DNA from: Clusia tigrina
Taxonomy: Eukaryota > Arthropoda > Insecta > Diptera > Clusiidae
Direction: 5' to 3'
Length of the DNA: 64,000 nucleotides
Assembly: GCA_920105625.2 (NCBI GenBank)
Contig: CAKKTE020000188.1
Location: 250,001-314,000, forward strand
Shown here: piece by piece, positions 24,070 through 64,000 of the stretch
Position numbering within the stretch: position 1 is the stretch's first letter
How the letters are laid out: every line of letters starts with the position of its first letter
Notes under the pieces: generated by a model
The model's input: the letters and a program-made list of their open reading frames with translations, nothing else
Databases searched by the model: none
Told to the model about the DNA's origin: nothing
Made by a program: the position numbers and the translations under genes

Positions 24070-27000
24070 TTATACCCCTCCGCTGGTAGGAGGCGGCTCT
24101 TCTCCCGGTAGGATCACCATCTTCGTGATAGGTCGGGTTAGCATTCCTCGTGCGGTCCGCACATCCACAACACGCACTTTTCCGTCAGGACCAGGGTGCG
24201 TATCGGTGACCCTGCCCAGCCGCCATTCTTGAGGCGCTAGGTTGTCTTCCCGCACAACCACTAACTCACCCACCTTGACATTCACTTGAGCCGTTCGCCA
24301 CTTACTCCGCCGTTGACACTCGAGAAGGTATTCGTTTTTCCACCTGACGCTGAATTGATGGGCCAGCGCCTTCAGTTTTTGCCATCGGTTCAAAATTGAG
24401 AGAAAGGGGGTTGTATCCGGAGGCTCAGCTGGTGCCAACAGTGGCGCACCCACCAAGAAATGACCAGGCGTCAGCGCTTGGAGATCCGTGGGGTCTTCCG
24501 ACAGAGCGCTGATAGGCCTAGAATTAAGACACGCCTCGATGCGCGCTAAGAGAGTCACAAATTCTTCAAACGTGTACTTAAGTTGCCCTGCCATGCGTTT
24601 GAAATGGTGCTTGAAACTCTTGACCGCCGCTTCCCAAAGGCCCCCCATATGTGGAGCATGGGGGGGATTAAAATCCCACTCGATCTGAGTATGAAAGTGA
24701 CCCACCACGGTTCGGTCACGGATTTCGCGGAGCACCCGCTGGAAATCAAGCCTCAACGCCTTTTCCGCGCCCACAAAGTTCCGACCATTATCCGAGTGCA
24801 TTTTCAAAGGACATCCCCGGCGGGCGATAAACCGAGACAATGCCGCAAGGAAGGCAGGAGTACTCAAATCGGTAGTCGCCTCAAGGTGAACTGCTCTCGT
24901 AGCGAAGCATACAAAGATGCAGACGTACCCCTTCGTAACGTGGCATGCCCGCCCCTTATAGTGCTTGATATCAAACGGCCCCGCGAAATCAACTCCAGTA
25001 TGGGTAAAAGGACGTGAACACGTGGTACGTTCAACCGGAAGAGCTGCCATGAGCTGCTGTTGTCGACGCTTCTTCCACAGAATACATGTCTTACATTGGA
25101 GAATTGTGCTTTTAATGAGCGTTTTCGCTTTTGGAATCCAATATTGGGTCCGGATTAGCCGCAACATTAGTTGATTCCCCCCGTGTAGGGACACCTGATG
25201 GATGAACTTCACTATCAGACGAGTCAAATGACCGTAGTATGGCAGAATGATCGGGTGTCTCTCCGAAAATGGCAAATGTGTAGTGAGCGCCAACCGACCA
25301 TTTACGCGCAGAGTACCATCGGAGTGCACGAACGGATTCAGAGCCAAAAGCGAACTGGAGCTGGGTATCGGCTCCCGTGCCACAAGTGCGCTGTATTCTT
25401 TTGGGAAATACATTTTCTGCGCGAGCACAATAAGGCAAGTGGTCGTTTCAGTGATTTCTCCCCGAGTAAGCGGGGACCCCCTGTCAGGAGTCGTGTCCCG
25501 ATGTTTCACCGAACAGTGGCGCATAAAGCGGCGTACGAAACTCAACACTCGGAGGGCCCTAGAAAATGAGGAGAAGCGCAACATTGGGTCGTCCGCAGAG
25601 GACACATATACTACATGACACTTTGCAGGTCGTTGCTCTTCATCGGTTGCTAACACGTTTTCGTCCAACGGAGGCGGCCACCGTTTCCGCTCCTGCTGCA
25701 GCCAGGCCGGGCCTTCCCACCAGAGCCTGTTGTGGAGTAGTGCATCAGGTGCCACACCACGGCTAGCTAAATCTGCTGGGTTATCTTCTGAGCGGACATG
25801 ACGCCAGTTGTTCACACCTACTTTGCTGGTAATAGCAGTGACTCGATTCGCCACGAAGACTTTCCACACGTGGGGTGGCTTTCGCAGCCATGCCAACACA
25901 ATCGTAGAGTCGGACCAACAAAACAAGTTGTCATCTGAAATATTTAATAGAGGTTTGAGAGGGAAAATCAGCTCTGCTAAAAGTGTTGCCCCACATAGTT
26001 CTAAACGTGGAAGAGAGATAGTTCTCAATGGGGCCACCCGCGATTTCGCCACTAGCAAATGGGTAGAGATGGAATTGTCACCTTTACACCGAACGTAAAG
26101 GGCTGCAGCATATGCTAGCTGAGAAGCATCACAGAAGGCGTGGAACTCAATATCGCGATCAGGTGCAGATCGTACCCAGCGAGGCACGCGTACTTGGGAG
26201 ATTGCCTGATACTGCGATAAGAAGTGTGTCCACCTTGTTAAAGTGGTAGGAGTAAGTTGCTCGTCCCAACCTATTTGATCCAGCCATATCTGTTGCATCA
26301 AGATCTTAGCGGAGATGACAATAGGAGCCAACCATCCCGCTGGGTCAAACAGCTGTGCGATGACCGACAGGACCTTACGTTTGGTGTATACGGCAACGAT
26401 TGGCAAAGCTGCCACGTGGAAATAAAACCAATCCCCCCGCGCATTCCATCGAATACCCAAAGTGCGAGTGGTGCTGGTCTCCTCGAATTGGAGAAAATCT
26501 TCCCTAAGCAGATGCCCTGGAGGCAAACCGGATAAAATTTCTGTAGAATTTGCTGCCCACTTTCGCATTGAGAACCCGGCTGAATCCAAGCTCTCAATCA
26601 GCTCATCCCTAGTGCGAATGGCAGTAGCAATATCATGTGTACCCACTAGAGCGTCATCCACGTACATCGAATTACGTAGCACCTGAGAAGCCAATGGGAA
26701 CCTGCTCTCCATGTCGTCTGCCAATTGCAAAAGTGTCCTTATTGCAAGATAAGGAGCACAATTCACCCCGAAGGTGACCGTTTTCAATTCATAGTCAGAG
26801 ATATCGCTGTCGGGAGATTCCCTAAACACAATTCTCTGGTATGAAGCCTGGCTTGGCTCAACCAGAATCTGACGGTACATCTTTTGTATGTCCCCGTTCA
26901 GGACATAGCGAAACATACGCCACTGGATTATTAGCCGGGTCAGATCGGCTTGTAACACTGGCCCTGTGTGTAACACGTCATTCAAGCTGACCGTGTTGGA

Positions 27001-29358
27001 AGTCGCCTGTGAGGCATTGAACACCACGCGAAGTTTGGTGGTTGTACTCTCTGGCTTAATTACTGCATGATGTGGCAAGTAATAATGAGGCACAGGAGTT
27101 ACTGACGGCGGTGGAACCTTGCGCATGTGATTTAACGTCACGTATTCAAGTACCACCGCGTCGTATTGTCGCTTATCGGCCGGGCTCTTTACCAGCCGGG
27201 ACTCATTGCGCTCAAATTGCCGAAGGGCAATATAGCGCGACGCTCCTAGAGACTTCTCCGGAACAAACCCTTGTTTGAACGGCAGAGAGACTATGTATCG
27301 CCCCGTAGCATCCCGACGAGTAGTCTGGGAGTACAAATTAAGGCAGTCTTGATCAGTCTGGGACAGCTTTCGATCTTGCGGAGGCTGTTCCATTTCCCAG
27401 AACTGTCGTAGAAGGTGGTCGAGCGAAGCAGTTTCAGACACTTGCACGCGAGTTGTGAAAGTGGATATCCGTTTATCCGGCAGAGGCCCTGTAAGGATCC
27501 AGCCGAATACCGTTTCTTGGGCAATCAGTGACCCCACCACGTTGCGCCGCAACCCATCAAGCAAGACCTGAGGGTAAAGATCCCCTCCGATTAACAAATC
27601 TACTTGGGTGGAGTGTGAAGTGCTTGAATCGGCTAACCTGAAATGTCTCAGTTTGTGTTGCTCTCCTTTACTCAATAGGAGCGGCGGCAGTTCACCTGTC
27701 AGGGTAGGCAACACCAAAGCCGATACTTGGAGACGCACAGTGGCATCGTACCGCGACCCGATGGTGATATGACATGCTTTGGTAACGGTGCCAGCAAGGG
27801 TATTGCTGACCCCCGATACCTGGGCATGTACTGCGTGCGCCGGCAGCTTAAGGCGCTTTTGGAGGCGGTCCGAAACAAAGGACCCCTCAGAACCAGAATC
27901 TATCAGAGCCCGGGCTGTGTACCATACTCCTTGATGTTTTATCGTGACTAAGGCCGTACCCAAGATAACACGATTGGAGAGGCGGCCACTTGGATGACTT
28001 GGACTCGGCCCCGCCCTATCTGCCGGACGCGATACCTGCGCAGTGTGGTACGAAGACTTGGGTACGGGTGGATGGACCAGGGAGGAGCGTCCATTTGAAT
28101 TGGAGCGTCCCCTCCCCGATGTGGATGGTGGGTTTGGCGTCGCAGCGGTTGGACGACCCCGTGGCGAGTCCGTATGCAGCAGAGTGTGGTGCCGCTCCCG
28201 ACAGGTGGAGCACGAAAGGGAGCTGGGGCAATTTGCCACTCTATGTGAAGCTGACAAGCAATTCACACACAACCCGTGTTTGCGCACCAAGCCCCACCGA
28301 GCTGATACGGTGGCGGCCTGGAACGCAGGACAATTTCGCACCGAGTGTGTAGACCGCCTGCACACTTTGCACCCTTCCGGGGTAACACTTACTGGATGGG
28401 TTTGCACCCGTGCTGTTCGCGGTTGATTCGGCTGAACCCTTATTTGTGATGAAATGGAGCCTTGCGACCGGAGATCCGAAATCGCCTCGAGTGTGTGAAA
28501 CCGCAATGACAAGAAGTCATCCATCGCCTTCCATTCTGGAATATCTGCGCGGCCCCCCATGGTTTGTTCCCACAGGGACAGTGTGAGCTCAGGCAGCCGC
28601 ATGGAGCACAAGTATACTAAAATGGCATCCCAACTCGCAACGTCGATGCCGTAAGATGTCAGTGCAGCGATACAGTTACCAATGTCACGCTGTAGGCGTT
28701 TAATTTCCCCACCATCTTCTCTTCTAACCGGGTCAAGACCCAACAGTGTCTTCAATTGGTTGTTGATCTGGATGCGCTTGTTGTCGTAGCGCTCCAGTAA
28801 GTTTTCCCACACTTGCTGAAAACCCGCCTCAGTAATTGGAATTTTGGAGACAATTTCATGTGGTTCTCCCCGGGTCTTAAGGGACAAATGGTAGAATTTC
28901 TCCGCATTAGACAGCCGCGTGTTGTTAATGAACAGTGCTGTGAACATGTCACGGAACGTTGGCCATGCAGCATAACTCCCTTCAAAGGCAGGGATATCAC
29001 AAGGGGGTACGTGGATGCTGTGCGTCAATGATAAAAATGGCTCCCCTGTAGTAGGAACGGGAGTTGCCTGCTCTAAACGTTGTCTCACTTCCGCGATCAA
29101 AATACGACCCCGCTTAAAAGTATCAAAACTTGACTCGAACCGCTGTCCGATTGACTCTAACAGTGATTCACCGTCTTTCATGACCCGCGCCTCGGACATG
29201 GCAGTTATTTTTGCCGTTTTAAGCGAAGCCCACCGAGCATCCAATTCTGCTTCATCAAGTTGAAGTGATATAATGGAGTGACTTTCCGGCGAGCACCGTT
29301 CAAAACGACTTATGAACATCAGAAGTTCATCTGCCGCCGAAATATACGAGTCCACCAT
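24070..29358 (-). CDS. pol: BEL/Pao gag-pol polyprotein, intact
   Basis: 1762 aa in one uninterrupted frame, near the usual BEL length. In order: gag capsid-like region (~100-300, DUF1759 type); zinc knuckles from ~330 (CKVCRRSTHSVRNC, CVNCLSASHRVANC); aspartic protease with ALIDSGSEGSF at ~487; RT with NGDIQKMYRQI and the catalytic MYVDDALVG at ~899; RNase H (EFHAFCDAS); integrase zinc site HGGNQLM/CKTC at ~1393-1422; integrase core with D in GVDFAGPF (~1457), D in HSDNGRNF (~1523) and E in GLWEAAVK (~1576); and a C-terminal DUF5641-like domain (GELVVVREDN...W..GRV). All catalytic motifs look present. Base composition is GC-richer than the errantivirus around it. The start at 29358 is the first ATG of the frame. 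Confidence 0.95.
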   Translation of the reverse strand: MVDSYISAADELLMFISRFERCSPESHSIISLQLDEAELDARWASLKTAKITAMSEARVMKDGESLLESIGQRFESSFDTFKRGRILIAEVRQRLEQATPVPTTGEPFLSLTHSIHVPPCDIPAFEGSYAAWPTFRDMFTALFINNTRLSNAEKFYHLSLKTRGEPHEIVSKIPITEAGFQQVWENLLERYDNKRIQINNQLKTLLGLDPVRREDGGEIKRLQRDIGNCIAALTSYGIDVASWDAILVYLCSMRLPELTLSLWEQTMGGRADIPEWKAMDDFLSLRFHTLEAISDLRSQGSISSQIRVQPNQPRTARVQTHPVSVTPEGCKVCRRSTHSVRNCPAFQAATVSARWGLVRKHGLCVNCLSASHRVANCPSSLSCSTCRERHHTLLHTDSPRGRPTAATPNPPSTSGRGRSNSNGRSSLVHPPVPKSSYHTAQVSRPADRAGPSPSHPSGRLSNRVILGTALVTIKHQGVWYTARALIDSGSEGSFVSDRLQKRLKLPAHAVHAQVSGVSNTLAGTVTKACHITIGSRYDATVRLQVSALVLPTLTGELPPLLLSKGEQHKLRHFRLADSSTSHSTQVDLLIGGDLYPQVLLDGLRRNVVGSLIAQETVFGWILTGPLPDKRISTFTTRVQVSETASLDHLLRQFWEMEQPPQDRKLSQTDQDCLNLYSQTTRRDATGRYIVSLPFKQGFVPEKSLGASRYIALRQFERNESRLVKSPADKRQYDAVVLEYVTLNHMRKVPPPSVTPVPHYYLPHHAVIKPESTTTKLRVVFNASQATSNTVSLNDVLHTGPVLQADLTRLIIQWRMFRYVLNGDIQKMYRQILVEPSQASYQRIVFRESPDSDISDYELKTVTFGVNCAPYLAIRTLLQLADDMESRFPLASQVLRNSMYVDDALVGTHDIATAIRTRDELIESLDSAGFSMRKWAANSTEILSGLPPGHLLREDFLQFEETSTTRTLGIRWNARGDWFYFHVAALPIVAVYTKRKVLSVIAQLFDPAGWLAPIVISAKILMQQIWLDQIGWDEQLTPTTLTRWTHFLSQYQAISQVRVPRWVRSAPDRDIEFHAFCDASQLAYAAALYVRCKGDNSISTHLLVAKSRVAPLRTISLPRLELCGATLLAELIFPLKPLLNISDDNLFCWSDSTIVLAWLRKPPHVWKVFVANRVTAITSKVGVNNWRHVRSEDNPADLASRGVAPDALLHNRLWWEGPAWLQQERKRWPPPLDENVLATDEEQRPAKCHVVYVSSADDPMLRFSSFSRALRVLSFVRRFMRHCSVKHRDTTPDRGSPLTRGEITETTTCLIVLAQKMYFPKEYSALVAREPIPSSSSLLALNPFVHSDGTLRVNGRLALTTHLPFSERHPIILPYYGHLTRLIVKFIHQVSLHGGNQLMLRLIRTQYWIPKAKTLIKSTILQCKTCILWKKRRQQQLMAALPVERTTCSRPFTHTGVDFAGPFDIKHYKGRACHVTKGYVCIFVCFATRAVHLEATTDLSTPAFLAALSRFIARRGCPLKMHSDNGRNFVGAEKALRLDFQRVLREIRDRTVVGHFHTQIEWDFNPPHAPHMGGLWEAAVKSFKHHFKRMAGQLKYTFEEFVTLLARIEACLNSRPISALSEDPTDLQALTPGHFLVGAPLLAPAEPPDTTPFLSILNRWQKLKALAHQFSVRWKNEYLLECQRRSKWRTAQVNVKVGELVVVREDNLAPQEWRLGRVTDTHPGPDGKVRVVDVRTARGMLTRPITKMVILPGEEPPPTSGGV

Positions 29359-29842
29359 TTTGCGGAACTTATGCGCTTGCGAACGCAGCTCAATATTGGC
29401 TTATATGCACCTCCGAACGCAACCGCACTGAAACCACGCCCAACACTTATCGTTTAAACGCACTGCGACAGAAGGGCCCACAATGTTCAGGAAACCAATT
29501 GCTGTAACCGGCCCTGCTTCACAAAAGAAATAGAGACAGCAGCTGATCGCATGAGCCACTGACCTACTTTTCTTATTCTGCTTTCTGCATTAGCCACCAG
29601 TACCTAAAAACGGCGATAATGCAGCGAAGACAACAACAGCGCAATGGTTTCAATAGTCAGCAGCGCCGACAGAGCACAAACACCCGAACGCACGGCAAAC
29701 CCAACCGAAACACAAAAAATAATTAATTTGTGTATAATCAAATTTAAATTATTGTTTGTTTATAATAATAATATTTTTAATTCGATTAAAACAATCGACA
29801 CTTACCAAAAACCGGATTCTTATCCGGCTCGAAGGACCAAAA
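29359..29842 (-). promoter_or_regulatory. BEL leader and primer binding site
   Basis: The minus strand directly after the 5' LTR reads TTTTGGTCCTTCGAGCCGGA (about 29841-29822). The TGGTCCTTCGAGCCGG motif is a common BEL/Pao primer site; I do not assign the tRNA. The remaining ~450 bp to the ATG is untranslated leader. Confidence 0.6.
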
Positions 29843-30373: not shown

Positions 30374-31624
30374 TCATAATTCTAAATATTCTGTAATTTC
30401 ATATTCATGTATTGAAATTGTTTTTAAATAATTTACAATTCTAGTTGTTGGGTTTTCATAGGTTACATTATCAATCTTTGTATAATTATCAAATACAATT
30501 AAATAGATTCCATTTACAATATGACCATCTATTAAATGTTTTCCTGATGCTAATATTGCGCCATCTCTTAATATTTCAATATATTTATTTTCTTCAATAA
30601 TTTTCTGACATTTTCCATTTTTCAAGTTTAATATATCAATCAAACATGTATTATTATTATTTTGAGTATTATTTTTACAATAAGTGTTTCTTATCTCAAG
30701 TTTACAATTATTAACATTTACATATTCATTATTACAATTTGCAATCTGTTTTTCAATATTCAATTTTCCTCCTTTCTGAGCTATTGCTCTTGTTTCGTAT
30801 AGTTTACAAATATTTTCGACAATTGGATACTTAATATATATTACAACCACATCTTTATTTTGAACAATTTTAAAATTTGAAGCATCAATTAAATCTGTTA
30901 GAGTGATCCTTTCATGTTCTGAATTAATTATTTCTTTAATTTCTTTTATATTCAAAATTGCTGGATTCAATATGTTCACTTTGGCTAAAGTTATAGTTTG
31001 AATCAAATTATGCAGTTCGTTTATTAAAATAGTATTTCTTTGTTTAATTATTTTGACCATTCTAGAACTTTCTTTAAAGTTATTAACTACTTGAGTTAAT
31101 TCTGTTACTGCTTTAAATAGTTGTGAATTAATCACAAATTGTTTATTATTATTCTGCACTAATTCATTTAATTTATTTTGAACTGATATAAAATCATCAT
31201 GGTCAGGTGTTCCAGCTATCCATTTCCAAATTGTGCCTAATTCATTTATACCTCTTTTATTTCTAGCATTTACTTTATCAGGTATTTCTAATTGCTTCAA
31301 TAACGTTTCAATTATATTCAATTCTAAATTGATTTCAAAAATATTATCACTCTCTGGATCAAATTCTTCGTATGAAATGTAATATAGGTTTTGTTTACTA
31401 TCAATATCAAAACTAGTATATGTGTGGTTACTTAATAATTTTCTTGTTTCCATTAATATCTCGTTATAATAAGTTAAATTTGTAATATGAAATATATTAC
31501 CAAAATCATTATAAATGGCAACTTCACCATATTCAATTAGTACGTAATCCTCTCTTGTATAATCAATAATTTCAGTAGCCTTTATATAAGGCAGCATAAC
31601 GATTAAAAACAACGTTAGGTACAT
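30374..31624 (-). pseudogene. env: errantivirus envelope protein, truncated
   Basis: 416 aa beginning with a signal-peptide-like hydrophobic stretch (residues 1-16). A furin-type site RNKR lies near residue 125, followed by the GTIWKWIAGTPD segment characteristic of insect errantivirus env. Several N-x-S/T sites and Cys residues lie in the C-terminal half. In the family this is a membrane glycoprotein. The frame closes at 30374 just before the membrane anchor. pol lies 23 bp upstream; such env genes are normally read from a spliced RNA. Confidence 0.9.
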
Positions 31625-31647
31625 TTTCTGAAAAATAAAATCAATTA

Positions 31648-34600
31648 TTACGTTCTTATATTGTCTTTATGCACCAATCTATTTTTCTTTTTTATTTTAA
31701 CCCTGTTCTTTAGATCTACCTTTACTTCTTGTTTCCTATATCTGGGTTTTAACTTATTCCTTTCACCTATGACTTTTTCAAATATTATTTGTTCCTTTTC
31801 AAAGTCTCTCATTGTTCTTTTTGCATTATTTCTTTTTAACATATCATTTTGTGCTTTTGATAATTTATCGGGAATATCATCGTGATTTATTTTATTAAAT
31901 AATACCTCAAATGGTTTCTTATCTATAACCGAATGTATAGATTTATTATACTCTTGAACTGATCTGTATATAGATTCTAAATCACTTATTAATTTGTATT
32001 CTTCTTTTAAACATCTTGCAATCTCTATAATCGTAGAATGAACTCTTTCAATTTGTCCATTAGTTGTGCTATGGCCTGGATCGCAGTAGTATACTTTTAT
32101 TTTTAATCTTTCCATTAATGATTTAAATTGAGGTGTAGTGAAACCTGGTTCATTATCGATTGTCAAGTTTTCAATTTCTGGAAAACCTTGAAGTGCTTCT
32201 AAAACTTTTTCATCTAGTTTAGTTTTGTCTTCTATTAACTTTAATATGACAAATTTTGAATAACTGTCAATGCATGTTAAGAATTTTAATTTTTGTGCAA
32301 AAAATATATCTAAATGCACTTGCTTCCCTTCCTTCTTTGGAATTGGAGCCCCTCCAATTGGTATCTTTATTGGATGTCGATCATATTTATTTTTGTTGCA
32401 TATTTCACAATGTCTTATATATTCTTTTATATGTTTCACCATTTTGGGCCAATAGTAAAATTTACATATTTGATTTAAATTTTCTCTATAATATCTATGT
32501 GCTCTACAATGTGTCTCTTGGACGATTATTTTTTGATCATCTTCATTTAATATATCCATTGGAAATTTCGTTGTATATTTAAATTTAATTCCATTAAAAG
32601 TGTTCTTTAATAACTCCTTTATTTCATGTAGAACTTCTCTAGTACAATGGATTCCTGTTGTAATATTTGGCTGTAGAAATTCTTTCAGAATTGTCTTTAA
32701 ATTATCTATGGTATCATACTCTATAATATGTCGAGTTCTGCCAAAGTTGACTATCATTTCATGAATAGTAAATCTATCTTTATCCAATAATAATTGTTGT
32801 TTAAATTGATTTAATGGTTTATTAGTTTCTTCAATTTGATTATCATCACTACTTTCTGCAGAGTGTTGCGTATTTGTACTAGAATCATTACTAGTTAAAT
32901 TATTAATATATTGTCGAGATAAAGCATCTGCAACTAAATTTGTTTTACCTGGTTTATAGACAATTTTTGGAGAAAATTCTTCTATAAAAGCATGCCATCT
33001 TTTCATTTTAGTATTAGGATTACGATGTGACATAGCAAATGTCAATGGTTGATGGTCTGTATGAATCTCTAAATTTGTTACTCCATACAAATAATTTCTT
33101 AAATTTTTTAATGACCATACTATAGCATACAATTCTTTCTCATTTGTTGCATAATTACATTCTGTTGAATTCAATGTTTTTGAAATAAAAATTATTGGTT
33201 TATTTTCTTGTGACAATACAGCACCAATTGCTGAATTAGAAGCATCTGTTGTTAAAATAAATTTTTTATTAAAATCTGGTTGAGTTAATTCTACTTGATC
33301 TGTCAATAAATTTTTTAACCTTTGAAATGCATAAATTGCGTCTTGATCTAATTTTATTTCAATCTTTTTAGACATATATTGTGAAACTTTTCCATTTTCT
33401 CCTGCTAAATACTTAGTAAGGGGTTTGCAAATAGAAGCATAATCTTTAATAAACTTTCTATAATAGCCTGTCATTCCTAAAAAGCTTCTTAATTGTCTTA
33501 ATGTTATCGGAATAGGATAATTATTAATTGTTTCAATTTTTTTAGGATCTGTTTTAATTATTTTGTGTCCAACAAAATATCCTAGAAACTCGACTTCTTT
33601 TTTATAAAAATTAGATTTTTGGAGTGATATTTTCATATGTGCATTTTTTAATGTTTCTATGACCATATTTAAATGTTTTGTATGTTCATCAATAGTTTTT
33701 GAAAAAACAATTATATCGTCTATGTAGACATGACAAAATGTTCCTATATATTCTCTTAAAATATCATCCATAGCTCTTTGAAATATACTTGGAGAATTTT
33801 TTAATCCAAATGGCATTCTTAAGAATTCATATTTTCCATTATTAATGGAGAATGCTGTTTTTTCTATATGTTTTTCATGCATTAAAATCTGATGAAATCC
33901 AGACTCTAAATCTATTGTAGAAAAATACACTGATTTTCCTAAATTTGACAGAATTACATTTGTATCCGGGATTGGATATTTATCGGAAATTGTAACTTCA
34001 TTAATTTTTTTATAATCAATAACTAGTCTCTGCTTTGGAGTACCATCTTCATTAATTCCTTTTTTAGAAACTATCCAAATTGGTGAGTTATAAGGACTTC
34101 TACTAGGTCTTATAATTTTTTCTTTTAACATTCTTGATATTTCCATATTAACAAACTTGTTTGCAGAAAAAGGATAAGGATACTGTTTACTCCATATAAG
34201 GGTTTCAACAGTTGTACGAATTTCTGCCTTAATGTCCGTTCTAAATGGTATATTTGTATTAATTTTAGAATGTATTAATTCTATTTTATTGACAATTTCT
34301 TCTTTCAAATTGTCTATATTTTTATTTGACACTTTATCTGATTTTTTACAACTTTTTCTTGAAATGTCACACATTTCTTTTTTCTCATTTTCCGACTTTT
34401 CTTCATGGAAATTATCATTATTTACTGGCGTTCTAGGATCATATTTCAAATTAACATTTTTCTTCTTATTTTCAACATTATATATTTTTTTAATGCGGTT
34501 TACTTTATTTTTCTTCTTTAAACTTTTCACATTGCCGGCATTATCATCGGCTTTCACTTTAGGGATACCTTTACCTAAAGCATAATTATTTATTACATGC

Positions 34601-34960
34601 TTTTCACTTTCACATGTTTTTTCAATAGATTCTTCACGAATTATTTCTGCACTGTAAATTTTTTCTTTATCTCCATTATACTGTAGTACACCATGTTTCA
34701 TATCAATTATGGACTTTGATTTTTTCAAAAAATTATATCCTATTAATAAATCTGATTCTAAATTATCAATTTCATAAAATATTTGCTTAACTCCTAGCAA
34801 TGTTATAATTTGATAATGAGTTATAATAATATAACTGTTAACTGTTCGAACCTTTTTCTTTATTGGCAACTCATTTCTTTCTTTATATATGCCTCTTCTA
34901 ATATAACAACTAGTCGCTCCTGTATCTATTAAAATTTTAAATTCTCTTCCTGTTTTAACA
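31648..34960 (-). CDS. pol: errantivirus pol (protease, RT, RNase H, integrase)
   Basis: The open frame from 34869 covers 1073 aa. Sequence in the same frame upstream holds the protease active site (ILIDTGAT, near 34930), so translation probably comes by -1 frameshift from gag rather than from the first ATG. RT has RLVIDYKKIN and the catalytic YIDDIIVF near residue 381. RNase H includes FILTTDASNSAIGAVL and LVADALSRQ. Integrase has an HRYYREN/CEICNK zinc site, then a D in HLDIFFA, a D in TIDNEPGF (usually DNG) and an E in NGQIERVHS. Integrity looks good over the whole frame. Confidence 0.9.
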
Positions 34961-34985
34961 TCTACTTTAAAAATGTAAGGAAGAT

Positions 34986-36104
34986 TTACCTTTTCCCTAA
35001 AAAATGGTTCTCATTTATATTGTTAATTCTTTGTGCCTTTGGAAAAGGCTGTTGACTATGTTGTCCACTATCATGAGCAGTATTATGAGGACGTTTTTGA
35101 CCGCGATTAAAATTATGTGGCCTATAGTTATTATTGTGCCAATAATTATTTGTATTATTGAATTTGTATCTATTCAACTTCTTAAAATGGTTTTGACTTT
35201 CGTCTACTTCCATAGGTTCTGGTTTAGAAAATTGATTAAAATTTTTAAATCTTTTACCAAACTGTTGAGGCCCTTTTGGATATCTCAAAACATTTTGATT
35301 ATCCTGAAATCCTTTTCTCTGAAAATTATTATTGTTTTGATTTTTATTAAATTGTAGAGCAAATGCTGCTCTTAAATTATTCGATTCGAGTTCTTGTGCT
35401 TTAGCTAACGCGTTTGGTATATCGCCCGGTTCAAGTGAAAATAATATATCATTCAATGGAGAATTCAATCCAGTGATAAATACTCTTAAGGCATATTGTC
35501 TATTTTTGTTATTTAACTCCTTTGTAATAGAGGAATCCGAACCATAAGTCATTATAGTCTTGTTCACTAAGAGTGTCAATTTTTTATTGACCAAATTATA
35601 ATAGTCTATTATAGACATTTGTCCTTGCCGAAGGACACTTAACTCTTGTTCTATGATATGTATCGGTCTTTTGTCTGCGTAAGCGAAATCTAGTCGTGCT
35701 ATAATAGCATCGAAATTTAAAACTGTTCCGTGGGCTGTTAGAACGTTATTAGCCTCTTTTACAAATTTATTTCTTAAAATCGTTAGTGCAGCGAAATATC
35801 TTTTGCTTCCTACGATATATAAACTCATACAATTATGAGCTGCTTCTCGCCAACTCACATATAATTCTCCGCCGAAAAATTCTGGTAACGATTTTATCAC
35901 GTCTAATGTTTATTCGCATATAATATTGTCATCAATTTCTTGATGAGTATATTCCGTAAAATCACTATTATATGTTAGCAATTGAATTTGTTTAGTTAAA
36001 TTATCGATTTCCGACCTTAATGAGGCTGTATTTGCACTGATAGCTCGTGCAATTACATCAACATTCAAGGATGTATTAAACGGATTACTGCGTAACGAAC
36101 TCAA
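34986..36104 (-). pseudogene. gag: errantivirus gag with one in-frame stop
   Basis: Two open pieces in one frame, 35910-36104 and 34986-35900, are separated by a single TAA at about 35910. The 304-aa part starts IKSLPEFFGGELYVSWREAA, the usual capsid entry of 17.6/tom-type gag. It ends in an Asn/Gln/Arg-rich nucleocapsid without CCHC knuckles. No ATG opens the N-terminal piece; a TTG lies at 36104 and an in-frame stop precedes it near 36160, so the true start is uncertain. gag overlaps pol in the -1 frame. Confidence 0.8.
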
Positions 36105-49728: not shown

Positions 49729-49812
49729 AAAAAAGATAACATACAAAATAGGGGACCTTGTTGCTATAAAGAGGACTCAATTTGTTGCCTGGAAAAAACT
49801 CATCAGCGAACA
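49726..49812 (+). pseudogene. gypsy integrase fragment, inverted relative to 51196-51282
   Basis: About 85 bp reading [14 protein letters not shown] on the plus strand is the reverse complement of the integrase segment at 51196-51282 with a handful of mismatches. Both end in TATATA tracts facing each other across the mariner. Confidence 0.85.
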
Positions 49813-52260
<2,448 letters not shown>

Positions 52261-56129: not shown

Positions 56130-56725
56130 AATTGATTATTATGTACTTTCTTAGGTGTACCATTATATTCTATTAATGAATTTACTCCTAACTTATCTAG
56201 TATTTTATATGATTCTTCATATGGATTCATATTCTTTTTCCTATTTTCTACTTTTTATAGAACTAAATCTCCTATTTCTACATTAAGTGTATTCGTACTA
56301 GTTTTTGAGTCAGTTAGTGTGCGTTTTTGTTTTGCTTTCATTAGCATTTGTTTTGCCTTTTCGTGGGCTTAGCGTAATCTCGCTTTTAGCTCGTTGGCGT
56401 AATTTTCAAAGTTGTAAATTTTTGTGTTACTTTCTATTACTTCATTGGGTAAACCTGGGAGTTTCCCATATATTAATTCATATGGCGTGTAGCCCGTGTC
56501 AACATGTGGCATTGTGTTGTAAGTGAAAGTGAAGTAGGGAATCCACTTATCCCATTCGTCGTCGTTTGTCGATGTCAGTAGGAATTCATTCAAAACTCTG
56601 TGGTTGCGTTCTAGTGAGCCTATCGTTTGGTGGTGGTACGGTGTCGAAAATTTTTGTTGTATTTTGAGCAGTGCACATATTGTAAAGATGGCAGGATCGC
56701 CATGTAAAGATGGCAGGATCGCCAT
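56130..56725 (-). pseudogene. pol: 412-like integrase C-terminal remnant
   Basis: 56369-56725 carries FSTPYHHQTIGSLERNHRVLNEF (catalytic E in the ERNHR block) and HVDTGYTPYELIYGKLP, clearly related to the integrase at 57407-58811. 56130-56368, with one stop, holds the C-terminal end including NVEIGDLV and KVHNNQLKPY. Its 5' side joins directly to PBS repeats, so everything from leader to mid-integrase is deleted. The first ~15 residues of the ORF are translated PBS repeat, not pol. Confidence 0.8.
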
Positions 56726-56746
56726 GTAAAGATGGCAGGATCGCCA
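56681..56746 (-). repeat. three 22-bp LTR-end/PBS units
   Basis: Three exact units at 56681-56702, 56703-56724 and 56725-56746. Each is the 8-base LTR terminus (TGTAAAGA on plus) plus the 14-base PBS (TGGCAGGATCGCCA). They abut the LTR at 56747. Confidence 0.92.
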
Positions 56747-57322
56747 TGTAAAGATGGGCTCAATTAATTAATTTAGCGGCGCGAGAGCTAGCGCACAATT
56801 TCAATCGGCGACTACGAGAGTACAGCCAAATATTAGTGTATGAAGCGAAATATATGCTCGCTATGTACAGATGGGCTCAAAGTATTATTTAGCGGCGCGA
56901 GAGCTTGCGCACAATTTCAATCGGCGACTACTGGAGTACAGCCAAATATTTAATGAGAAACGAAAGGTTTGGTTTCCAGATCGAATCTGATTTATTGATA
57001 AAGTCTTATTGCTATTTATACTTTTAATTTCTTATGTGCTAAGACTTAGTACATAATATGGTTCTTAATACATAAAGAGGGCTTTTGCAATGTCAGCGGA
57101 AAGTATCACGGTCAATGCCAGCGTACATTCGTTCGAGGGCATCGAACATTAGAATGCAACGTAATCAAAAACGTGCGCTGTTCGCGCTTCATAACGTAAA
57201 TATTCTTATATGAGAGTTCGATGTACTTACGTTGCGTCTCCGCTCACATTGCATGTGCCTACGCCGCGTATGGTGTTGGCGTTTGTGTGTATATATATAC
57301 ATTATGCTTTTCATACACTACA
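56747..57322 (-). repeat. LTR, tandem unit copy 1
   Basis: 576 bp, on the minus strand TGTAGT...TTTACA. Near-identical to 60499-61074 and homologous to the solo LTR at 7330-7771. It contains an internal near-repeat: GGGCTCAA...TTTAGCGGCGCGAGAGC at 56756-56835 recurs at 56874-56951. Next to its right end, the minus strand AGTAGGATAAGGG is a polypurine tract (57323-57335). Confidence 0.9.
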
Positions 57323-57406
57323 CCCTTATCCTACTGGGAAAAAAAACTTTTGTTGGTGTTTAAACCAAAAAATTTTTTTTTTATAAAAGTATTTATGTTA
57401 TATTAA

Positions 57407-58811
57407 TTACTTAAAATTTTACCACTTTATCTTTACAATGGTGTATATTTTTTTTAATAAGTTTTTATGGAGTTCTTTTATTTCTCCTTTTATTTCTAAT
57501 AGACAATTTACATTCCGAATTTCAATTACTCTATAAGGACCATTGTAGGGTTTTTGGTTTTTCTTTCTATTCATATTTCTTACTAATACCATATCTCCTA
57601 TATTTAAATGTAGTGTGTTTTTGCCGTACAATACTTTTTTGTAGTTTCGATTTTTCGATTAATGCTTTTGCATTTTTTATTGAATAATGTAATCTAATTC
57701 TGAGTTCGTTAGCGTAGTTATCCATATTGTATATTTTTGGATTTTCTTGGCTGTCAGTACTTGAGAGGTGTGGTAATTTGCCATATACAAGCTCAAAAGG
57801 TGTGTATTGTGTGTCTACATGGGGGGTTGTATTATATGCAAATGTATAGAACGGGATCCAATTGTGCCAGTCATAGTCGTTGGTAAAAGATAACATGAAT
57901 TCATTTAATACGCGGTGATTTCTTTCTACTGATCCTAATGTTTGGTGATGGTATGGTGTTGAGAAGTGTTGTTCAATGTCTAGTAATTTGCAAATGTTGT
58001 ACATGAGCTCATTTGTGAACTCAGTGCCTCTATCTGATTTTAATGTCTTAAAATGGCCATATTTTAGGATGCATTGTTCTACTACTGTTTTAGCTACGGT
58101 TTTAGCGTCTTTGGTTTCTATTGGGTGTGCTATTACAAATTTTGTCAGTTCGCACTGTATTGTGAGTATGTATATGAATCTGTCTGACATTCTTAGTGGT
58201 CCAACTGTGTCTATTTCAAGTACTTCAAAACTTGTGTTTGGTGTGTCTGTTATTATTTCTTTTTCGTGTATATGTTTAGTTATTTTGCTCTGTGCGCATT
58301 TGTCACAGTTTTTTATAAAATCTTTCACCATTCGACTCATATTTTTCCACACATATCTTTGTTTTAGTTTTAGAGTGGTTTTTCTTATACCAAGGTGTCC
58401 TCCATGTGTTGAGTTGTGGTATTCATTTATTAATTTATATTTAATTATATCGTTTTCAATTCTTTTAGGGGTTTCATATATAATAATCTTGTATGCGAAA
58501 GGTTTTTCTTCAATATGCTGTTCTTGCAGCTTGTTAAATATATTTTTAAATTCTTCTTTTTGTACACCTTCAAAAATTATATCTTTATTCGATAGCGCTA
58601 AAATGTCGACTTTGAATTTTTTTATTTCAGATGCTAGCTTCTCCATAATCGAAACGTATTTCGTATAGTTATCACTAGATCTACTATGCATAGTTTTTGT
58701 ATTAAGAGGTGACAACTTCTCCAGAATCGAAACGGATTTCGGTGGATTATCGTTGTACCTTACGCGCAATATATTCTTATCTTTTTCATAGATTAATTGA
58801 GTACTCTTCAT
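57407..58811 (-). pseudogene. pol: integrase, unit 1 (frameshifted)
   Basis: Same protein as the 466-aa integrase of unit 2 up to residue ~402 (RQKH). There an 8-bp deletion around 57620 (between TGTGTTT direct repeats) shifts the frame: one ORF ends at 57567 and the rest of the C-terminal domain is read from 57631 to 57419. HHCC and all three catalytic residues are intact. Other differences from unit 2 are few (for example Asn/Gly near residue 21 and Asn/His in IYNMDN). Confidence 0.9.
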
Positions 58812-58839
58812 ATTTATATCGTTCGCTTTTTCAAATTTA

Positions 58840-59215
58840 AATTTTGCAATGTATCAGACGTCAGTGATAGATGTACAGTCCCAGATATGAAGTTGATCAG
58901 ACTTCTCTTGGGTTTTGTATTTTACTTGTTTTTGTTGGTCTGCATGTTTTTTGGCAGTTATAATTAATGTTCTTTTAGCTTTTTCATCGGTTTCTTTAGG
59001 AATCATTTGTTTTAAAGTTTCTGAATCAATTTTGATTCTGGAAAGTGCGTCTGCGTTGGTATTTGATTTTCCTCTTTGTAGTATGTCAAAATCAAAATGG
59101 TATTCTTGTCATTGTAAAAAGTGATACTAATGGTTAGTGGCAACTGTAAATTTTTTGACTATATAAAATTGCTAAAATTTCTTTTCAATTACTGGTTTAA
59201 CTACACATATTTTCT
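58840..59215 (-). pseudogene. pol: RNase H remnant, unit 1
   Basis: The minus strand reads EYHFDF.ILQRGKSNTNADALSRI, the RNase H end of gypsy-type pol. Further upstream KKFTVATNH resembles its F.V.TDH block with most of the intervening region lost and stops present. A basic linker continues to the integrase ATG at 58811. Confidence 0.75.
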
Positions 59216-59793
59216 TTTCAAAACTTAAATGTAAAATTTTGTTTTTGTGTATTTACTATTAAAATTTAAGCCCAAAATTTATTTCATTTTAACCTGCGAT
59301 TTTACATAACAAAATTTTGTTGTTTTTGGAAAATTTTGCAATAAATTTTATAATTTTTCTTGGTTTCCTAATGCTTTTGTTTAATGTTTCTCCATTACAT
59401 ATGTATGTATATGAATTATCAATTAGTTTCTGTTCCGTATTAATATATTTATAATAATAACATTTATATTATATATGGTCTTTAAATTAAATTAAAAGTC
59501 ACGTATGTATAGGTATATAAAAATATTAAAGATTCTTAACTAATATTTAAATGTATTAAGTTGCTTAACTATAATATTAAAATAAATTATTTGTAAGAAG
59601 TTTCGCTTACTCTGTTTCTAAAGACAAAATTATGCAAAGCTAAAATTATAACCATTTCATTTGTTATTATTTTTTTTTAAATTTATAAACATTTACAATT
59701 AAAGTCAAAGATATATATATATATATATTTTTTTTTTTAGATTAAATGCAAAAATAGTTTAAGAAAATGAGATAAAAAAATAGTTTTAAATGT
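59216..59793 (-). other. AT-rich stretch after the PPP1R14-like ORF (possible captured 3' UTR)
   Basis: 580 bp of AT-rich non-coding DNA lies between the host-like ORF's stop and pol sequence. It has no retroelement motif and is duplicated at 62977-63554. If the ORF came from a host mRNA, this is where its 3' UTR would be. Confidence 0.4.
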
Positions 59794-60162
59794 TTACAGC
59801 GTTTTAGCACGCTCCAAAAGATCACTGCTAAATTTCGATATTTCCAATTGTGGTCGTTTACAGACTGACAATAAATTAATGACATGAGATTTTCTTATGT
59901 CATCTGTGTCCATATCTAAAATTTCATCGTTGTCTACCTCGATGGCCTCGCCCGGTGGATCAAAGAGTTTCTGCACTTCATCATACAGCGACATCTCCAA
60001 AGCCAGTCTCTTTCGTATTACACTCATCTGATAGAAACCATATTTGGCGGTTAGGAACTTCTCCTGTCGCTTCTTAACTTCTGAACTTCTCTCATTAAAA
60101 TTGACGCGTAAATTTTGTTGGTTCGGTAAACCAATATTCAGTTTTTTGGGACCGCACTGCAT
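59794..60162 (-). CDS. PPP1R14/CPI-17-like PP1 inhibitor, retroelement-borne copy 1
   Basis: 122 aa, intronless, ATG to stop with no defect. Residues 36-122 fit the PHI-1/CPI-17 family of protein phosphatase 1 inhibitors: a KFLTAKYG segment aligned with the family's inhibitory R-V-T-V-K-Y site, Thr at 38; IRKRLALEM helix; DNDEILDMDTDD acidic segment (family IDELLELES); INLLSVCKRP and LLERAKTL end helices. In the family, phosphorylation of that Thr makes the protein a potent PP1 inhibitor. The usual Trp after the RRL-E helix is Ser (EMSLYDEV). No retroelement protein resembles it. It is in sense with the element, between leader and pol. Recognition is by eye. Confidence 0.7.
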   Translation of the reverse strand: MQCGPKKLNIGLPNQQNLRVNFNERSSEVKKRQEKFLTAKYGFYQMSVIRKRLALEMSLYDEVQKLFDPPGEAIEVDNDEILDMDTDDIRKSHVINLLSVCKRPQLEISKFSSDLLERAKTL

Positions 60163-60234
60163 TTTGAAAACAACTTTGGTCGATTTTATGTTGTCTTATT
60201 ACAGCCTTTTTTTGAAGTGGGTGTGAGATTGTAG

Positions 60235-60312
60235 CTAGGAGTCTTCCTTCTGGATATGTTGCTCTGCCAGTTGTTGAAATTTTTCGAATAGTTGGTGGAA
60301 ATCGGTATTCAT
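60235..60312 (-). CDS. 25-codon upstream ORF, possible gag start
   Basis: MNTDFHQLFEKFQQLAEQHI... then stop, located where gag should begin after the leader. The helical, Gln-rich composition fits the first residues of a gag. If so, the capture joint lies between 60235 and 60162. No domain is recognised in such a short peptide. Confidence 0.35.
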   Translation of the reverse strand: MNTDFHQLFEKFQQLAEQHIQKEDS

Positions 60313-60374
60313 CTTCTTATTGCAGTTTTAGGATTATTTTAGGATTGTTTAAAATTTTTGGGTTTTTAATAAAG

Positions 60375-60498
60375 TGCCAGTTTGGCAGGATTGATAAGAG
60401 AATTGCCAGTTTGGCAGGATCGATAAGAGAATTGCCAGTTTGGCAGGATCGCCATGTAAAGATGGCAGGATCGCCATGTAAAGATGGCAGGATCGCCA
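60375..60498 (-). repeat. leader repeats: 29-bp and 22-bp PBS-containing units, unit 1
   Basis: Two 29-bp units (60375-60403, 60404-60432), one partial (60433-60454), then two 22-bp units (60455-60476, 60477-60498) abut LTR 2. All contain TGGCAGGATYG, the core of the PBS. The full 14-base PBS occurs at 60441-60454, 60463-60476 and 60485-60498. Confidence 0.9.
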
Positions 60499-61074
60499 TG
60501 TAAAGATGGGCTCAATTAATTAATTTAGCGGCGCGAGAGCTAGCGCACAATTTCAATCGGCGACTACGAGAGTACAGCCAAATATTAGTGTATGAAGCGA
60601 AATATATGCTCGCTATGTACAGATGGGCTCAAAGTATTATTTAGCGGCGCGAGAGCTTGCGCACAATTTCAATCGGCGACTACTGGAGTACAGCCAAATA
60701 TTTAATGAGAAACGAAAGGTTTGGTTTCCAGATCGAATCTGATTTATTGATAAAATCTTATTGCTATTTATACTTTTAATTTCTTATGTGCTAAGACTTA
60801 GTACATAATATGGTTCTTAATACATAAAGAGGGCTTTTGCAATGTCAGCGGAAAGTATCACGGTCAATGCCAGCGTACATTCGTTCGAGGGCATCGAACA
60901 TTAGAATGCAACGTAATCAAAAACGTGCGCTGTTCGCGCTTCATAACGTAAATATTCTTATATGAGAGTTCGATGTACTTACGTTGCGTCTCCGCTCACA
61001 TTGCATGTGCCTACGCCGCGTATGGTGTTGGCGTTTGTGTGTATATATATACATTATGCTTTTCATACACTACA
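60499..61074 (-). repeat. LTR, tandem unit copy 2
   Basis: 576 bp, offset 3752 from the LTR at 56747, with one difference noticed (AAAGTCTT against AAAATCTT near 60753). It is shared by unit 1 (as 5' LTR) and unit 2 (as 3' LTR). Confidence 0.92.
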
Positions 61075-61170
61075 CCCTTATCCTACTGGGAAAAAAAACT
61101 TTTGTTGGTGTTTAAACCAAAAAATTTTTTTTTTATAAAAGTATTTATGTTATATTAATTACTTAAAATT

Positions 61171-62571
61171 TTACTTGTTTATCTTTACAATGGTGTATAT
61201 TTTTTTTAATAAGTTTTTATGGAGTTCTTTTATTTCTCCTTTTATTTCTAATAGACAATTTACATTCCGAATTTCAATTACTCTATAAGGACCATTGTAG
61301 GGTTTTTGGTTTTTCTTTCTATTCATATTTCTTACTAATACCATATCTCCTATATTTAAATGTAGTGTGTTTATGTGTTTTTGCCGTACAATACTTTTTT
61401 GTAGTTTCGATTTTTCGATTAATGCTTTTGCATTTTTTATTGAATAATGTAATCTAATTCTGAGTTCGTTAGCGTAGTTATCCATATGGTATATTTTTGG
61501 ATTTTCTTGGCTGTCAGTACTTGAGAGGTGTGGTAATTTGCCATATACAAGCTCAAAAGGTGTGTATTGTGTGTCTACATGGGGGGTTGTGTTATATGCA
61601 AATGTATAGAACGGGATCCAATTGTGCCAGTCATAGTCGTTGGTAAAAGATAACATGAATTCATTTAATACGCGGTGATTTCTTTCTACTGATCCTAATG
61701 TTTGGTGATGGTATGGTGTTGAGAAGTGTTGTTCAATGTCTAGTAATTTGCAAATGTTGTACATGAGCTCATTTGTGAACTCAGTGCCTCTATCTGATTT
61801 TAATGTCTTAAAATGGCCATATTTTAGGATGCATTGTTCTACTACTGTTTTAGCTACGGTTTTAGCGTCTTTGGTTTCTATTGGGTGTGCTATTACAAAT
61901 TTTGTCAGTTCGCACTGTATTGTGAGTATGTATATGAATCTGTCTGACATTCTTAGTGGTCCAACTGTGTCTATTTCAAGTACTTCAAAACTTGTGTTTG
62001 GTGTGTCTGTTATTATTTCTTTTTCGTGTATATGTTTAGTTATTTTGCTCTGTGCGCATTTGTCACAGTTTTTTATAAAATCTTTCACCATTCGACTCAT
62101 ATTTTTCCACACATATCTTTGTTTTAGTTTTAGAGTGGTTTTTCTTATACCAAGGTGTCCTCCATGTGTTGAGTTGTGGTATTCATTTATTAATTTATAT
62201 TTAATTATATCGTTTTCAATTCTTTTAGGGGTTTCATATATAATAATCTTGTATGCGAAAGGTTTTTCTTCAATATGCTGTTCTTGCAGCTTGTTAAATA
62301 TATTTTTAAATTCTTCTTTTTGTACACCTTCAAAAATTATATCTTTATTCGATAGCGCTAAAATGTCGACTTTGAATTTTTTTATTTCAGATGCTAGCTT
62401 CTCCATAATCGAAACGTATTTCGTATAGTTATCACTAGATCTACTATGCATAGTTTTTGTATTAAGAGGTGACAACTTCTCCAGAATCGAAACGGATTTC
62501 GGTGGATTACCGTTGTACCTTACGCGCAATATATTCTTATCTTTTTCATAGATTAATTGAGTACTCTTCAT
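61171..62571 (-). CDS. pol: integrase, unit 2 (intact, 466 aa)
   Basis: Zinc-binding domain with His at ~132-139 (YHNSTHGGHLG) and Cys 169/172 (NCDKCAQ). Catalytic core D201 (LEIDTVGPL), D260 (KSDRGTEF), E296 (GSVERNHR), spacing D-35-E. C-terminal domain with LNIGDMVLVRN and YNGPYRVIEI. 412/mdg1-type by the PYHHQTLG..ERNHR block. The first ~110 residues are an RNase H-to-integrase linker, so the ATG at 62571 may not be the natural N-terminus: in intact elements integrase is cut from a polyprotein. It could provide integration without gag or RT. Confidence 0.9.
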   Translation of the reverse strand: MKSTQLIYEKDKNILRVRYNGNPPKSVSILEKLSPLNTKTMHSRSSDNYTKYVSIMEKLASEIKKFKVDILALSNKDIIFEGVQKEEFKNIFNKLQEQHIEEKPFAYKIIIYETPKRIENDIIKYKLINEYHNSTHGGHLGIRKTTLKLKQRYVWKNMSRMVKDFIKNCDKCAQSKITKHIHEKEIITDTPNTSFEVLEIDTVGPLRMSDRFIYILTIQCELTKFVIAHPIETKDAKTVAKTVVEQCILKYGHFKTLKSDRGTEFTNELMYNICKLLDIEQHFSTPYHHQTLGSVERNHRVLNEFMLSFTNDYDWHNWIPFYTFAYNTTPHVDTQYTPFELVYGKLPHLSSTDSQENPKIYHMDNYANELRIRLHYSIKNAKALIEKSKLQKSIVRQKHINTLHLNIGDMVLVRNMNRKKNQKPYNGPYRVIEIRNVNCLLEIKGEIKELHKNLLKKIYTIVKINK

Positions 62572-62599
62572 ATTTATATCGTTCGCTTTTTCAAATTTA

Positions 62600-62976
62600 A
62601 ATTTTGCAATGTATCAGACGTCAGTGATAGATGTACAGTCCCAGATATGAAGTTGATCAGACTTCTCTTGGGTTTTGTATTTTACTTGTTTTTGTTGGTC
62701 TGCATGTTTTTTGGCAGTTATAATTAATGTTCTTTTAGCTTTTTCATCGGTTTCTTTAGGAATCATTTGTTTTAAAGTTTCTGAATCAATTTTGATTCTG
62801 GAAAGTGCGTCTGCGTTGGTATTTGATTTTCCTCTTTGTAGTATGTCAAAATCAAAATGGTATTCTTGTCATTGTAAAAAGTGATACTAATGGTTAGTGG
62901 CAACTGTAAATTTTTTGACTATATAAAATTGCTAAAATTTCTTTTCAATTACTGGTTTAACTACACATATTTTCTT
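62600..62976 (-). pseudogene. pol: RNase H remnant, unit 2
   Basis: Near-exact copy of 58840-59215 with the same stops, showing that the damage predates the duplication. Confidence 0.75.
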
Positions 62977-63554
62977 TTCAAAACTTAAATGTAAAATTTT
63001 GTTTTTGTGTATTTACTATTAAAATTTAAGCCCAAAATTTATTTCATTTTAACCTGCGATTTTACATAACAAAATTTTGTTGTTTTTGGAAAATTTTGCA
63101 ATAAATTTTATAATTTTTCTTGGTTTCCTAATGCTTTTGTTTAATGTTTCTCCATTACATATGTATGTATATGAATTATCAATTAGTTTCTGTTCCGTAT
63201 TAATATATTTATAATAATAACATTTATATTATATATGGTCTTTAAATTAAAATAAAAGTCACGTATGTATAGGTATATAAAAATATTAAAGATTCTTAAC
63301 TAATATTTAAATGTATTAAGTTGCTTAACTATAATATTAAAATAAATTATTTGTAAGAAGTTTCGCTTACTCTGTTTCTAAAGACAAAATTATGCAAAGC
63401 TAAAATTATAACCATTTCATTTGTTATTATTTTTTTTTTAAATTTATAAACATTTACAATTAAAGTCAAAGATATATATATAAATATTTTTTTTTTTTTA
63501 GATTAAATGCAAAAATAGTTTAAGAAAATGAGATAAAAAAATAGTTTTAAATGT
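62977..63554 (-). other. AT-rich stretch, unit 2
   Basis: Copy of 59216-59793 with small differences: AAATTAAA/AAAATAAA near 63250, a one-base T-run indel near 63437 and a changed TA run near 63480. Confidence 0.5.
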
Positions 63555-63923
63555 TTACAACGTTTTAGCACGCTCCAAAAGATCACTGCTAAATTTCGAT
63601 ATTTCCAATTGTGGTCGTTTACAGACTGACAATAAATTAATGACATGAGATTTTCTTATGTCATCTGTGTCCATATCTAAAATTTCATCGTTGTCTACCT
63701 CGATGGCCTCGCCCGGTGGATCAAAGAGTTTCTGCACTTCATCATACAGCGACATCTCCAAAGCCAGTCTCTTTCGTATTACACTCATCTGATAGAAACC
63801 ATATTTGGCGGTTAGGAACTTCTCCTGTCGCTTCTTAACTTCTGAACTTCTCTCATTAAAATTGACGCGTAAATTTTGTTGGTTCGGTAAACCAATATTC
63901 AGTTTTTTGGGACCGCACTGCAT
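63555..63923 (-). CDS. PPP1R14/CPI-17-like PP1 inhibitor, retroelement-borne copy 2
   Basis: Encodes the same 122 residues as copy 1. The only coding difference I see is synonymous (last Leu codon CTG in copy 1, TTG here), so the ORF has stayed open through duplication while the neighbouring integrase of unit 1 broke. The same call and reservations apply. The leader upstream reaches the window edge at 64000. Confidence 0.7.
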   Translation of the reverse strand: MQCGPKKLNIGLPNQQNLRVNFNERSSEVKKRQEKFLTAKYGFYQMSVIRKRLALEMSLYDEVQKLFDPPGEAIEVDNDEILDMDTDDIRKSHVINLLSVCKRPQLEISKFSSDLLERAKTL

Positions 63924-64000
63924 TTTGAAAACAACTTTGGTCGATTTTATGTTGTCTTATTACAGCCTTTTTTTGAAGTGGGTGTGAGATTGTAGCTAGG

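Follow-up and report, generated by a model that had tools for sequence, protein, structure and literature searches.

The window analysed here, a stretch of 64,000 nucleotides of DNA from the fly Clusia tigrina, contains two units of a deleted Ty3-type LTR element. The element is identified as such by its LTRs, primer binding site (PBS), polypurine tract (PPT), integrase domains, and, in two dispersed copies, 4-bp target duplications. Read along the minus strand, a unit consists of an LTR, the PBS, a gag-like start, host 5' UTR, a cargo open reading frame (ORF), host 3' UTR, a flank that is not parental, an RNase H remnant, integrase, the PPT, and a second LTR (Table 1). The cargo is in sense with the element, as a first-pass annotation of this DNA had described, with the LTR, PBS, and gag-like start on one side of it and the RNase H remnant and integrase on the other. 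The second unit went unnoticed in that annotation. It is 99.4% identical to the first; in an alignment of 3,560 columns, the two are set apart by 11 substitutions and two indels.

Table 1. Features of the two cargo-bearing units (positions within the window).
Feature	Positions	Strand	Description	Basis
Left (3') LTR of copy 1	56681..57322	minus	642 bp	
Polypurine tract	57323..57338	minus	Before left LTR	
Integrase frame, copy 1	57567..58811	minus	Shortened by 8-bp deletion	
RNase H remnant	58840..59184	minus	Broken (stops and frame change)	
Captured piece of parent 3' UTR	59427..59676	minus	84% over 269 columns	
Cargo ORF, copy 1	59794..60162	minus	122 aa, processed PPP1R14B-like	ORF, Pfam, protein comparison, parent gene
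Captured piece of parent 5' UTR	60172..60232	minus	85% over 61 columns	
Gag-like start	60235..60312	minus	25 codons from ATG 60312, then stop	Putative gag, by position
Primer binding site region	60437..60454	minus	Directly after LTR; preceded by 22-bp copies of PBS and LTR end	
LTR common to both units	60455..61074	minus	620 bp, TGTAGT...TTTACA; TATA box 60772, AATAAA 60748	
Polypurine tract copy	61075-61090	minus	Before shared LTR	
Integrase frame, copy 2	61171..62571	minus	Open, 466 aa	
Cargo ORF, second unit	63555..63923	minus	Same protein, one silent difference from copy 1	ORF list, unit alignment

The LTRs are direct repeats with TG...CA ends, and the integrase carries H2C2 and rve domains. 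Because gag, protease, and reverse transcriptase (RT) are absent between leader and integrase in the window units, and RNase H is broken, these units do not qualify as an autonomous LTR element. The primer that pairs with the PBS is presumably tRNA-Arg. We take the 412/mdg1 lineage to be a candidate placement, with the tRNA-Arg primer and pol phylogeny as its criteria; among the matches listed, one relative, 39% identical, bears the name 'transposon 412'. On its left, the array adjoins the integrase gene of another element (52.7% identical over 188 aa), as is expected of an insertion, while its right end lies beyond the edge of the window.

The TATA box and AATAAA in the LTR suggest a putative LTR promoter for the cargo. 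In the leader, four ATGs follow the AATAAA and precede the ATG of the cargo. A fusion of gag and cargo was considered for the window and is unsupported, as the gag-like start ends so soon.

At 56681-56746 and 60433-60498, 22-bp units repeat the end of the LTR together with the PBS. Two extra units are found in the middle LTR and three in the left LTR, and their numbers differ in other copies. Elsewhere in the window, at 7342-7767, a piece of LTR shares about 84% identity with the LTR of the cargo element; the matched part has no cargo nearby.

The cargo had been read as a relative of the PPP1R14 inhibitors of protein phosphatase 1 (PP1), and several comparisons bear this out. Its 122-aa product matches PF05361 (PP1_inhibitor) at 23.9 bits (E = 4.7e-5), above the gathering score of 22.4 bits. 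Seven cyclorrhaphan PPP1R14B proteins, 94-99% identical to one another, each share 73-76% identity with the copy 1 protein. The expected inhibitory site at residue 38, Thr-x-Lys-Tyr, is present as T38-A39-K40-Y41 and is invariant across a 23-row alignment. The protein is a putative inhibitor of PP1 or myosin phosphatase.

Like the CPI-17/PPP1R14 inhibitors described in excerpts of PMC5754374, the cargo combines PF05361 with a Thr at residue 38 that is followed by x-Lys-Tyr. It differs in that the CPI-17 chains of the PDB are weak sequence matches to it (E = 0.49 and 0.72). It also has private changes in the window array, including a 6-nt in-frame deletion and the loss of a tryptophan that all the orthologues share. 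The window array is therefore atypical of its family. In a protein tree the window copy sits on a long branch among the fly orthologues, where its placement is not firm. The putative C-terminal helices named in the first-pass annotation, and a four-helix fold like that of CPI-17, were sought in an AlphaFold model of the protein, which is of too poor quality for use (mean pLDDT 60.5, pTM 0.30), with no PDB match at E <= 0.001. No relative was found in the phage, viral-contig, and genome-contig collections that were scanned.

Parent gene and dispersed copies

The window's own genome (1.21 Gb in 666 contigs) was searched for the parent gene with the Stomoxys protein as query. The intron-bearing host gene that the first-pass annotation had called for is present in it, at locus L041 on contig C3 near 91 kb. 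This gene has four exons, separated by GT-AG introns of 72, 239, and 79 bp. Its product of 124 aa is identical to four fly proteins at 118-120 of 124 residues (119 of 124 for Stomoxys). All three introns are missing from the window ORF, which had rightly been called intronless, and none of the 70 other loci compared matches them at E <= 1e-8. At the nucleotide level, cargo copies are about 87-92% identical to the parent.

Parental sequence extends beyond the coding region on both sides. A match of the parental 3' UTR to positions 59216-59793 had been anticipated; it holds for 59427-59676, but not for the rest of 59216-59426. The intronless copy, the intron-bearing parent, and the parental UTR pieces together support the central proposal of the annotation, that an LTR element captured a cellular gene.

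Processed copies of the gene are found in other settings as well. L029 (C3:147416512-147416883) is an independent processed copy of the same host gene, broken and outside the element. Matches to exon 1 alone were considered as possible captures at the DNA level that include an intron. Four of the five examined (L061-L063 and L065) turned out to be processed copies with deletions; at L064, exon 1 alone is seen.

The element is dispersed through the genome. A nucleotide query of 651 bp around the cargo, with 40 of 361 first-look candidates scored, gave at least 46 matches. Forty of these, counting those of the window itself, are near full length at 94-100% and are spread over C1, C2, C3, C4, C10, C55, C139, and C242; the other six are 29 bp long. 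A protein query, with 150 of 346 candidates scored, gave at least 151 matches, which include a parent exon and the retrocopy L029. The anatomy of the element is repeated in the 20 stretches examined, which contain 22 of the 40 near-full-length places whole, often with LTRs or interiors truncated.

Target duplications of 4 bp flank the young copies L023 and L027, the two of the 20 stretches with both outer ends visible. One is probable, judged by eye in AT-rich DNA, in the older L067 too. Since the duplications surround the whole element, the element has moved together with its cargo. The members of LTR pairs differ at 6 of 352 positions in L023 and at 1 of 210 in L024, and four further pairs are comparable over just 30-58 positions. 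L061-L063 share one cargo deletion, yet they lie on C1, C4, and C2, so the full cargo is not needed for spread. Of 11 integrase copies that are nearly full length, nine have one difference near the C-terminus in common, and the remaining indels are private; stops are also private, save two that are common to both units of one array.

Cargo elements also occur in tandem arrays with a spacing of about 3.7-3.9 kb, at 56681-64000 of the window and, in genome coordinates, at C242:309.7-317.9 kb, C2:73.674-73.686 Mb, C1:365.559-365.579 Mb, and C4:122.959-122.964 Mb, with three, four, six, and two copies. Neighbouring units have an LTR in common in the window, C2, and C4 arrays.

The history proposed here, to which we give a probability of about 0.85, comprises capture of an mRNA, spread in trans, exchange of backbones, near-neutral decay, and a protein that is a passenger. 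A spliced PPP1R14B mRNA would have been copied into a Ty3-type LTR element during reverse transcription, presumably by template switching. The cargo and its UTRs would have taken the place of gag, protease, RT, and most of RNase H, leaving a non-autonomous element that retained its LTRs, PBS, PPT, and integrase gene. This element may then have been moved in trans by intact relatives. The wider lineage does hold intact pol frames: in a search for pol, with 63 of 32,801 candidates scored, 19 of the 66 matches listed cover the full length with open, stop-free frames of 1,155-1,319 aa, and they count as relatives by virtue of 54-61% identity to a third protein across the whole query.

The later steps of this history can be followed in the copies themselves. 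The element has spread through the genome with its cargo and has formed successive subfamilies. Its 3' half, and in some lineages the LTR too, appears to have been exchanged by recombination with other Ty3 backbones, as is visible at one locus each in groups M, K, and O. Inserted copies are seen to decay in a nearly neutral fashion. The protein, still largely open-framed, is most likely a passenger, although it might have a selected role.

Passenger or selected gene

If the cargo is kept by selection, a protein made from the LTR transcript would aid the element or alter signalling in the host. One such model sees the captured inhibitor as a durable, exchangeable Ty3 module, favoured because its germline LTR product would damp PP1/myosin-phosphatase signalling to the advantage of the element. 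An exchangeable inhibitor module of this kind would be the transposon counterpart of a viral oncogene. The state of the reading frame gives the idea of a selected gene some support. Among 24 complete cargo copies, 18 have an open frame and six are broken (L017, L018, L020, L021, L025, and L028); once three near-duplicates from arrays are left out, 15 of 21 are open. The T-x-K-Y site is also retained in the window copies.

The substitutions speak for decay. The 21 copies carry 54 nonsynonymous (N) changes, 16 synonymous (S) changes, and three stops as private variants, while their shared variants are two N, no S, and one stop. Their pN/pS is 0.85 and their mean divergence 2.1%. This pattern is a star-like burst with nearly neutral decay. 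Compared with the parent, the same copies show dN of 0.098-0.122 and dS of 0.098-0.158, with ratios of 0.67-1.06; over all 43 rows, L029 included, dN/dS ranges from 0.46 to 1.26. Within the groups of the cargo tree described below, pN/pS is 0.59 for 28 Y copies, 0.94 for eight K copies, and 0.75 for three M copies. In comparisons from one group to another and with the parent, net pN/pS is 0.64-1.05, with every interval including 1.

Sharing of variants gives a mixed answer. In the 43 copies, which include L029 from outside the element, shared variants comprise 75 N, 26 S, one stop, and no frameshifts, and private ones 149 N, 45 S, five stops, and six frameshifts. The ratio of N to S does not differ between the two classes (p = 0.67). 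Shared variants include fewer disabling changes (1 against 75 N) than private ones do (11 against 149 N), a difference that favours a selected gene and holds by Poisson (p = 0.026) but not by Fisher (p = 0.11). Changes are not enriched by site conservation: they fall on 17 of 74 invariant and 12 of 48 variable positions. A neutral simulation, in which the parent was guessed from orthologues, gave a weak result, with a probability of 0.08-0.17 for no stop; it is superseded by the comparison with the real parent.

Strong constraint on the cargo is thus not seen in these substitution tests, although its frame is possibly kept weakly. The four ATGs upstream of the ORF also weigh against a selected gene, as do L061-L063 with their common deletion on three contigs. 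Selection for the protein is therefore unlikely, and the same degree of doubt applies to the Ty3 module. The cargo is probably mainly a passenger.

One capture or several

The cargo is found in elements that otherwise differ considerably. A tree of 48 cargo sequences contains a clade of L058, L066, L067, L062, and L063 and another clade of 40 rows, which is made up of groups K (8), M (3), and Y (29). The parent clusters with L029, and L057 is weakly placed; the bootstrap of this tree is not settled.

L067 has an LTR pair of its own (94.5% identical over 650 bp), which barely aligns with the LTR of the window family (67% over 96 nt), and it has host 3' UTR to +759. Its integrase region, in three pieces, is 63-64% identical to that of the window; as protein, pieces match at 38% (84 aa) and 54% (37 aa). 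The cargo ORFs of the two are 86.7% identical over 210 nt.

Group M (L069) combines parts of both. Its LTR is of the Y type (82.8%) and its cargo ORF is 90.7% identical, while its integrase region is 79.9% identical to L067 over 1,122 nt, against 64% to Y; the last 83 nt are Y-like again (86.7%). Along the alignment, M and Y are 83-96% identical through the cargo and 3' flank and then drop to 29-65%. From this point M and L067 are 86-93% identical over about 750 columns, and then 45-70% where both are short. The change of similarity falls sharply just 3' of the cargo. Unequal rates give no such switch, which indicates recombination.

Group K (L068) consists of two tandem units that are 99.9% alike. 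It has a third LTR, 70.8% identical to that of Y over 113 nt, and an integrase region 63% identical to Y and 66% to L067, whereas its cargo is 87.7% identical. Just the last part of the 5' UTR is kept, so the 5' junction of K is not comparable. From these alignments, one captured cargo appears to be present in at least three backbones through recombination, with three of the four groups, M, K, and O, represented by one locus each.

The same distribution could arise if several Ty3 elements had captured the same mRNA independently. At least three backbones do carry the gene, and L029 shows that its mRNA was retrocopied separately at least once. Yet the 5' capture junction, with the outer bases of the element, is common to the window family, L066, and L067, and group M joins the window type and the L067 type in a direct mosaic. 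In addition, the K, M, and Y cargo falls into one supported clade of 40 rows, and that of L058, L062, L063, L066, and L067 into another. Independent captures are thus quite improbable.

Alternatively, a LINE could have made a processed retrogene that landed in an LTR element, after which the whole spread with the gene as a passenger. The element copy is intronless, L029 demonstrates another retroposition of the same mRNA outside the element, and a run of 11 A lies 55 nt past the cargo stop. However, the parental 3' UTR continues beyond this run, so it is not a poly(A) tail, and the 3' UTR match in the window copy shows, by eye, no terminal poly(A). No direct repeat of at least 9 nt has one copy at each end of the retrocopy. 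Moreover, gag, protease, RT, and most of RNase H are gone at the site. An insertion of LINE type is disfavoured by the missing poly(A) tail and framing target duplication, and this origin is also quite improbable. The competing case named in the first-pass annotation, in which pieces of retroelement inserted around a native host gene, is excluded by the missing introns, the dispersed copies, the target duplications, and the true native gene at L041.

Comparison with known systems

Capture by an LTR element, as proposed here, resembles several known processes. In retroviral transduction of the v-onc type, a host cDNA replaces gag-pol, and the chimera needs intact helpers. Here too a host cDNA stands in place of gag-pol, and the element would likewise depend on helpers. 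Unlike the v-onc type, the window lacks a gag-cargo fusion, and the element is an endogenous one of the Ty3 type, in which no env separates integrase from LTR. Retroviral transduction of cellular genes is named in passing in sections of PMC7264820.

In metazoans, LTR elements can capture mRNA by template switching (Tan et al. 2016, as described in excerpts of PMC5408686). As in that form of LTR-mediated retroposition, a spliced mRNA has here been copied via an LTR element without the signature of poly(A) plus repeat. Unlike the cases in those excerpts, the chimera in C. tigrina is a multi-copy mobile family with subfamilies and a cargo in several backbones.

Plant LTR elements carry transduced ORFs in one or few copies, according to sections of PMC7264820, and Bs1 of maize is presented as a classical plant case of a transduced gene in part of PMC13317346. 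In these, too, an LTR element contains coding sequence of the host in sense orientation. Unlike them, as portrayed in these sections, the present case is from an insect and has a complete coding region with parts of the UTR on both sides. That LTR elements capture host genes is already known; what sets this case apart is the mobile multi-copy family with its cargo in several backbones. Among the titles of the literature on PPP1R14 or CG17124, in a search with most subscription papers outside it, no element with such a cargo was found.

A single genome shows the parent with its introns, the capture junction, dozens of dispersed copies, subfamilies, and several backbones. The persistence of a captured gene within a retroelement, its role as passenger or tool, and the way in which non-autonomous elements switch partners through recombination thus all become open to testing. 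Copies of the cargo could also feed small RNAs directed against the parent gene.

The window contains other retroelements as well. On the minus strand at 24070-29400, an open frame of 1776 aa with Pao-type peptidase, RT, and integrase domains marks a BEL/Pao element with an open pol. It is followed at 30374-35909, also on the minus strand, by a Ty3-type element with an open pol of 1120 aa, whose third frame of 430 aa matches PF07253 (Gypsy, an env-type protein) at E = 4.2e-50. Finally, long simple repeats of the TA type are found at 49777-50128 and 50920-51260, one of them within the integrase frame of a retroelement.
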